The translations under genes were made by a program, and so were the position numbers. Below are positions 3,918 through 4,441 of a DNA stretch of 7,954 bases, in pieces. Where the stretch lies: NCBI GenBank assembly GCA_015655565.1, contig JAATEU010000148.1:1-7954 (forward strand), read 5' to 3'. The stretch is from Clostridiales bacterium (GTDB lineage: Bacteria; Bacillota; Clostridia; Lachnospirales; Lachnospiraceae). The notes beneath the pieces were generated by a model. The model saw nothing but the letters and a program-made list of their open reading frames with translations, was not told where the DNA came from and did no database searches. The first letter of the stretch is position 1. The number at the start of each line of letters is the position of its first letter.

Positions 3918-3931
3918 AAGGAGCTAATATG
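3918..3931 (+). promoter_or_regulatory. Ribosome binding site and start of the long BMC-H form
   Basis: AAGGAG (3918-3923), a 5-base spacer and ATG (3929) form a good initiation site. It argues that the 78-residue extension is really translated and is not an accident of an open frame. Confidence 0.7.
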
Positions 3932-4441
3932 GCAGAAGAAAAAAAGCCTGAGGAAATAAAAGCAGCAACAGAAGAAACAGTAAAGGCAACGGTAAAAGGA
4001 ACAGTTAAAAAAGCAGCAAAAGAGACAGCAAAAGAGGCAGCAAAAGCAGCAGTTAAAGAGACAGCAAAAGCAGTAACCAAAGAACCGGTAAAAGCAATAA
4101 AAGAAACAATAAAACCAATAAAAAATGAAATAGCTAAAACAGCTGTTAAGGAGGAAAAAAGAATGGCACAAGAAGCATTAGGAATGGTAGAAACAAGAGG
4201 TTTAGTAGCAGCAATAGAAGCAGCAGATGCAATGTTAAAGGCAGCAAATGTTACATTAGTAGGCACAGAAAAAATTGGGTCCGGTCTTGTAAGTGTAATG
4301 GTAAGAGGAGATGTAGGTGCGGTAAAAGCAGCAGTAGAATCCGGTGCAAGTTCAGCATCAAAGCTTGGTGAATTAGTAGCTACCCATGTAATTCCAAGAC
4401 CGCACACAGATGTAGAAAAGATTCTTCCATCTTTAAAATAA
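3929..4441 (+). CDS. BMC-H shell protein with lysine-rich repeat extension; two start sites likely
   Basis: The long product is 170 aa: a 78-residue low-complexity extension, then a complete PduA-like BMC-H domain (residues 79-170; pore GTEKIGSGLV, end HVIPRPHTDVEKILP). The extension is rich in K, A, E, T and V. In residues 16-55 it consists of ten tandem tetrads ending in lysine, such as ETAK and AAVK, so it should be helical and net positive. Methionine 79 has its own strong ribosome binding site, so a 92-aa standard shell protein is probably also made. The PduB/PduB' pair of the Pdu compartment is a known precedent for a shell gene with two starts, where the longer N-terminus ties shell to enzyme core. 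An anchoring, cargo-recruiting or shell-to-polymer role for this extension is inference. It follows the previous shell gene by 35 bases. Confidence 0.9.
   Translation: MAEEKKPEEIKAATEETVKATVKGTVKKAAKETAKEAAKAAVKETAKAVTKEPVKAIKETIKPIKNEIAKTAVKEEKRMAQEALGMVETRGLVAAIEAADAMLKAANVTLVGTEKIGSGLVSVMVRGDVGAVKAAVESGASSASKLGELVATHVIPRPHTDVEKILPSLK
3974..4093 (+). repeat. Ten degenerate 12-bp tandem repeats coding xxxK tetrads
   Basis: These 120 bases split into ten in-frame 12-base units, each ending in a lysine codon (AAA or AAG). GAGACAGCAAAA occurs exactly at 4022-4033 and 4058-4069, and GAGGCAGCAAAA differs from it by one base. The units code ETVK, ATVK, GTVK, KAAK, ETAK, EAAK, AAVK, ETAK, AVTK and EPVK. 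A minisatellite of this kind could change unit number by slippage between strains. Confidence 0.8.
4148..4165 (+). promoter_or_regulatory. Internal ribosome binding site and second start in the extended BMC-H gene
   Basis: AAGGAGG (4148-4154), an 8-base A-rich spacer and ATG (4163) lie in frame inside the long gene. The same arrangement, GGAGG with an A-rich spacer then ATGGCACAAGAAGCATTAGG, precedes the paralogue at 3225. The site is stronger than the outer one, so the short 92-aa form may be the more abundant product. Confidence 0.75.

Follow-up and report, generated by a model that had tools for sequence, protein, structure and literature searches.

Locus and genomic setting

The window analysed here is an entire contig of 7,954 nt (C249) from a genome assembly of 632 contigs that is 63% complete. 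Profile matches identify a series of genes that run in a single direction: an aldehyde dehydrogenase, an alcohol dehydrogenase, four BMC-H shell proteins, PduL, BMC-P, a PduS-like protein and a PduT-like protein. The beginning of a DeoR-type regulator was recognized by eye at position 7614. This order matches that of Cphy_1178–1187, the fucose/rhamnose compartment locus of Clostridium phytofermentans, with one extra BMC-H gene. Gene order, PduS, PduT and the regulator (the last judged by eye) agree with a GRM5-type fucose/rhamnose locus. The contig stops short of the genes for the glycyl radical propanediol dehydratase and the class II aldolase; elsewhere in the incomplete genome, on separate contigs, there are two PFL-like matches.

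The start of the alcohol dehydrogenase is probably ATG 1546, not GTG 1456, and its N terminus would then resemble an encapsulation peptide (NIEEIVKQVLQEMKNG). The true start of the PduK-like gene is probably ATG 3609, preceded by GGGAG at 3598–3602, rather than 3579. An antisense frame at 3910–4497 (195 aa) was taken as a by-product of codon bias.

A BMC-H gene with an N-terminal arm and two candidate starts

Table 1 Features of the armed BMC-H gene and neighbouring shell genes in the window
Feature	Position	Strand	Remarks
First BMC-H of the locus	2782–3096	+	
Armless PduA-type paralogue	3225–3500	+	82% identity to the BMC part of the armed gene
PduK-like BMC-H neighbour	3579–3893	+	Without a long C-terminal tail here
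Outer ribosome-binding site AAGGAG	3918–3923	+	5 nt before ATG 3929; anti-SD pairing −7.9 kcal/mol
Whole armed BMC-H gene, predicted long product	3929–4441	+	170 aa; ORF, profile match
N-terminal arm	3929–4162	+	78 codons, K/A/E/T-rich, predicted disordered
Inner ribosome-binding site AAGGAGG, within Lys-Glu-Glu codons	4148–4154	+	8 nt before ATG 4163; anti-SD pairing −12.1 kcal/mol
Inner start and PduA-type BMC-H domain, predicted short product	4163–4441	+	92 aa; ATG is codon 79

The last of the four BMC-H genes carries an extension ahead of its shell domain (Table 1). PF00936 spans residues 83–158 of the product and covers the full profile, 1–75 (E = 1.1e-29), and PduA structures match residues 78–169. 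The gene therefore encodes a single, complete and unpermuted domain of the canonical PduA/EutM type, and not the two tandem domains of a BMC-T protein; from its family membership, we infer that the protein assembles as hexamers. The open reading frame and the profile match together confirm the first-pass annotation, which had described a 78-residue in-frame extension of a complete BMC-H domain. Its second claim, of an AAGGAG site at the outer start and a stronger AAGGAGG site at M79, holds as well, the inner site having the lower pairing energy of the two (Table 1). Two in-frame starts, each with its own ribosome-binding site, make this a dual-start gene at the level of sequence only.

A Pfam search with the arm alone gave no match close to a cut-off. 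The arm DNA of the window consists of imperfect 12/24-bp tandem repeats; the lysine-repeat arm proposed earlier is thus a fair description of the window gene, but the repeat is not common to its relatives. An AlphaFold2 model of the armed protein is poor (mean pLDDT 57.9, BMC part included), and its pLDDT below 50 over residues 1–64 is only weakly consistent with disorder.

Armed relatives and their distribution

A protein search from the arm returned 18 other proteins at E values up to 1e-3, all with PF00936. Fifteen of these were aligned with the window protein in 16 rows, leaving out P0002, P0009 and P0010. The BMC part is nearly invariant across the alignment and the arms vary freely in both length and sequence, the only invariant arm residues being A2, K74, E75 and E76, with M79 next. 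In P0011 (234 aa), several KKTIDEAS repeats fill the arm while the BMC part is fixed, and arms seem to lengthen by tandem repetition.

A genome scan took the best 80 of at least 571 loci, and armless loci are therefore under-sampled. A family-wide search found BMC-H matches (the domain, not arms) in 89 of 299 genomes, and additional loci were retrieved from these. The resulting 148 loci contain 268 distinct BMC-H copies at no less than 60% identity, and 77 of these have an in-frame start at least 20 codons upstream. A strict rule based on an outer site and on composition retained 65 of the 77 as arms. Among the 12 extensions outside the rule are arm-like cases (L015, L021, L044 and L125), frames that are probably open by chance, and L061, an arm that lacks the inner start. 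Around 2935–3946 of L061, this arm is followed by two armless copies, and the species may encode the two kinds of tile separately.

The strict arms are 23–114 aa long (median 48), with 19.7% Lys and 12.4% Glu overall. Of these arms, 59 carry a positive net charge, three are neutral and three negative (median +5); both the charge and the strength of the outer site are in part predetermined, since composition and outer site are criteria of the strict rule. Recurring features are a K/A/E/T-rich make-up, often a MAxxKK-like beginning, and a KEE-KR end ahead of the inner Met. A KAPAKTxxRV segment is conserved within otherwise variable arms (L012, L013, L017, L018, L079, L092, L093 and L097–L101) and is perhaps a binding site.

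A weakly supported BMC-H tree of 260 rows was built from few columns; its key fork has a support of 84, and the majority of its forks are unresolved. One set of 138 rows in this tree takes in 62 of 64 strict arms, together with 69 plain rows and 7 weak ones. Upstream frames that stay open and offer a start at least 20 codons up occur in 69 of the 138 rows in this set versus 7 of 122 outside it, which is more than chance, although arms have ancestry in common and these are not independent counts. A second PduA-type copy lies near the armed gene at 63 of 65 armed loci, the window included, so the short product would not be the sole plain tile. L094 has no other PduA-type copy within the stretch read, and neither has L044, from an L. 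phytofermentans metagenome-assembled genome.

The inner site is conserved as DNA

Among the strict arms, the inner start is ATG in all 65, and an in-frame xxG-GAG precedes it in 63, reading GGAGG in 57 of those 63. This agreement across homologues supports the inner start proposed at M79. The two exceptions are L075, where the site is out of frame and the extension is probably a chance frame, and L152, which has no site. Around position 1554, L152 has a frame that could encode an arm beginning at GTG; it lacks an inner site, lies outside the main armed set, and may be a chance frame or a different case.

The conservation lies in the codons. Third-position G reaches 0.92 at codon −5 and 0.97 at codon −4 of the 65 arms, and stays at 0.08–0.25 at the seven other codons from −9 to −6 and −3 to −1. 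Lysine at the site is encoded by AAG in 54 of 54 cases, compared with 34.5% elsewhere in arms, and glutamate by GAG in 63 of 63, compared with 28.4% in arms. Nine genes have Arg, Thr, Met, Pro or Glu in place of the lysine, and all nine retain G as the last base of that codon. Without the strict filter, 75 of 77 armed copies have GGAG ahead of the inner ATG, a frequency similar to that for plain genes (183 of 191); it occupies a single phase in 72 of the 75 armed copies, whereas in plain genes it is spread 105/54/24 over the three phases. With one GGAG phase and fixed codons, armed genes are therefore under selection for a ribosome-binding site, and only secondarily for the peptide. On these codon statistics, we rejected GGAGG as a chance product of Lys-Glu-Glu coding.

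It might be argued that only the long protein matters and that the inner GGAGG serves as a pausing element or is left over from a former start. The armless state may indeed be ancestral, since the same set includes 69 armless rows, and the arm could then have overwritten an earlier start. A relic would nevertheless be expected to drift to synonymous codons, which the uniform GAG and AAG do not show, and an ATG at start spacing always follows. We regard this explanation as very improbable.

The arm is conserved as protein

The opposite proposal is that only the short protein is made, with the upstream frame serving as a leader that is not translated. In its favour, pairing with the anti-SD is stronger at the inner than at the outer site in 60 of 65 strict arms (within the first set of arms, the inner site is the strongest of its own arm in 34 of 35), and chance open frames do exist, as in the 7 of 122 rows outside the main set. 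However, dN/dS over the arm, computed with the last 18 nt excluded, is 0.10–0.28 in 8 of 10 close pairs, with the other two saturated; the pairs overlap in members and represent few lineages. Summed over seven pairs, 66 differences fall at the first codon position, 42 at the second and 174 at the third, and in codon-blind DNA alignments of three arm pairs the gaps are 3, 3 and 18 nt, all multiples of three. The outer start also has a site of its own, which is partly built into the strict rule. On the dN/dS values and codon-position counts, we rejected an untranslated upstream frame, and we give the leader proposal almost no credence.

Because dN/dS in the arm is low and changes are concentrated at the third codon position, the armed protein is very likely produced. 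Both starts are likely used, since the inner site is kept as DNA and the arm is under protein-level selection. The earlier idea of one gene with two products is thus strongly supported by inner-site conservation and by purifying selection on the arm, and the products themselves are what we infer from these sequence patterns.

Arms and PduK-like tails replace each other

The gene directly upstream offers a further, new observation. The comparison covered the 37 of 65 armed loci and the 30 armless loci that passed hand-made motif filters chosen post hoc; the remaining loci lacked a recognised PduK-like gene directly upstream. Of the 37 armed loci 3, and of the 30 armless loci 22, have a PduK-like C-terminal tail of at least 10 residues past the domain (Fisher 2.9e-8), in a test framed after the pattern had been noticed in armless orthologues. 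When 16 armed/armless pairs were taken from a tree of both domains joined, the armless member had the longer tail in 14, with two ties and no reversal (sign test 6e-5). Three loci have both arm and tail, and eight armless loci have neither.

The first-pass annotation had named homologues with a broken upstream frame and an intact BMC-H part as grounds against its two-product reading. In form such homologues exist, as the 69 armless rows of the same set; the frequency of PduK-like tails at armless loci nevertheless points to replacement of the arm, and not to an upstream frame that goes untranslated. Arms and PduK-like tails thus appear, from these sequence comparisons, to substitute for each other, and this is the part of our analysis most worth testing.

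Some PduK-like tails are lysine-rich and arm-like (L045, L065 and L067). Several end at their extreme C terminus in a recurring YLQEV, YLYTV, YLSQV or xxEV motif, much as a docking peptide would; YLQEV-type tails occur at the armless loci L033, L037, L059, L139, L140 and L142, and also at L029, L103, L119 and L151. A different tail motif, SKMLGxDPPDF, recurs in the PduK-like gene of another armless group (L122, L127, L138 and L144).

The exchange also bears on whether the arm is simply a generic polycation for nucleic acid, polyphosphate or membrane, that is, a surface tail in which charge alone matters. The excess of positive arms, in part a product of the strict rule, fits such a role, and some arms resemble histone H1 tails by eye (L012 and L129). 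Against it, glutamate accompanies lysine at more than half its frequency overall, six of 65 arms are neutral or negative, and the majority of replacement tails are not positively charged. A role for charge alone therefore seems rather improbable.

Side of the shell

The first-pass annotation had pictured the arm as a possible tether for cargo, polyphosphate, nucleic acid or the cell envelope. The exchange with tails favours a PduK-like surface role for it, and so does published work on Pdu shells. Passages of one study place the PduA N terminus on the concave side of the hexamer, which faces the cytosol in recombinant shells, and describe the native orientation as disputed (PMC6109187). The PduK extension is placed on the same, concave side in passages of another, in which PduK governs compartment positioning (PMC9132943). 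Because both termini are assigned to the concave side, we favour a tail on the outside of the shell.

The arm could instead be luminal, tying the shell to the enzyme core as the N terminus of PduB does, with the short form serving as filler like PduB′. According to parts of the Pdu literature, the N-terminal 37 residues of PduB link shell and cargo in Salmonella (PMC9132943) and its N terminus serves as a signal sequence (PMC12108088); a concave-in orientation is treated as possible for native shells in the same source that records the dispute (PMC6109187). The window arm itself has one amphipathic stretch, KEPVKAIKETIKPIK (moment 0.65). By the same measure, a comparable stretch occurs in only 6 of 65 arms, and a canonical encapsulation peptide is thus not a general feature of them. 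Moreover, hydrophobic residues make up a median fraction of 0.11 of the arms (0.16 in the window), compared with 0.29–0.40 in the N termini of the three enzymes of the locus, and the arms exchange with tails of a PduK-like protein. We consider a luminal tether unlikely.

Relation to known dual-start shell systems

The precedent cited in the first-pass annotation, PduB/PduB′ among BMC-T proteins, stands: in the passages bearing on it, one shell gene of the Salmonella Pdu system gives two products through an internal start, with an N-terminal extension of 37 residues (PMC9132943, PMC5109269, PMC10100840). The window gene would resemble it in yielding, as predicted here, long and short products that differ by an N-terminal extension. 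It differs in that PduB is a tandem-domain trimer and the window gene a single-domain, PduA-type BMC-H, and in that the window arm is 78 residues long, lysine-rich and poor in hydrophobic residues. In the β-carboxysome pair CcmM58/CcmM35, the short form is made from an internal ribosome-binding site, as stated in part of PMC8580825; CcmM is a luminal scaffold protein, however, whereas the window product is a shell tile. Like the window protein, PduK is a hexamer tile with an extension, which in PduK is considered to lie on the outside, and window-type arms replace the tails of PduK-like neighbours. Here, in contrast to PduK, the extension is N-terminal rather than C-terminal, sits on a PduA-type tile and comes with a second start.

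The closest counterpart is Cphy_1182 of C. phytofermentans, in the same position of the same gene order. A table footnote reports that only its residues 73–161 align to PduA (PMC3557285), so an extension exists there too; the word 'extension' is absent and a second start is not mentioned in the relevant passages of that paper. The variant cmcC′ of GRM2 was set aside as a precedent, being described in part of its source as an accidental C-terminal mutant (PMC6971018). In the passages of open-access literature searched, we found no dual-start canonical BMC-H. The dual-start mechanism is thus already known from PduB/PduB′ and CcmM35, and would be new, within that literature, for a canonical BMC-H.

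A model for armed and plain shell tiles

In the model that we consider probable, translation from the outer start would give a 170-aa armed tile and translation from the inner start, at codon 79, a 92-aa plain tile. The short product would probably be in excess, because the inner site pairs better. Long and short forms may enter the same hexamers, a mixing that is plausible within one predicted hexamer, so the ratio of starts would set the number of arms per hexamer. The arm is predicted to lie on the concave, probably cytosol-facing side, where it would act as a PduK-like surface tail whose dosage is set by the second start. Such an arm may space, tether or position compartments rather than load cargo.

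More tentatively, the exchange between neighbouring genes can be extended to clostridial GRM5-type compartments in general. These may possess a movable surface tail, carried either as an N-terminal arm of the major, PduA-type tile or as a C-terminal tail of its PduK-like neighbour; where it is an arm, its dose would be set by the embedded site, and mosaic hexamers with zero to six arms could set the spacing or placement of the organelle.

If this is correct, the window gene would be the first canonical BMC-H known to us that gives armed and plain tiles from one gene, a conclusion based on DNA-level selection. It would offer a natural control of the number of appendages per shell hexamer, which shell engineers need, and the spacing and positioning of metabolosomes would become testable in a non-pathogenic clostridium.
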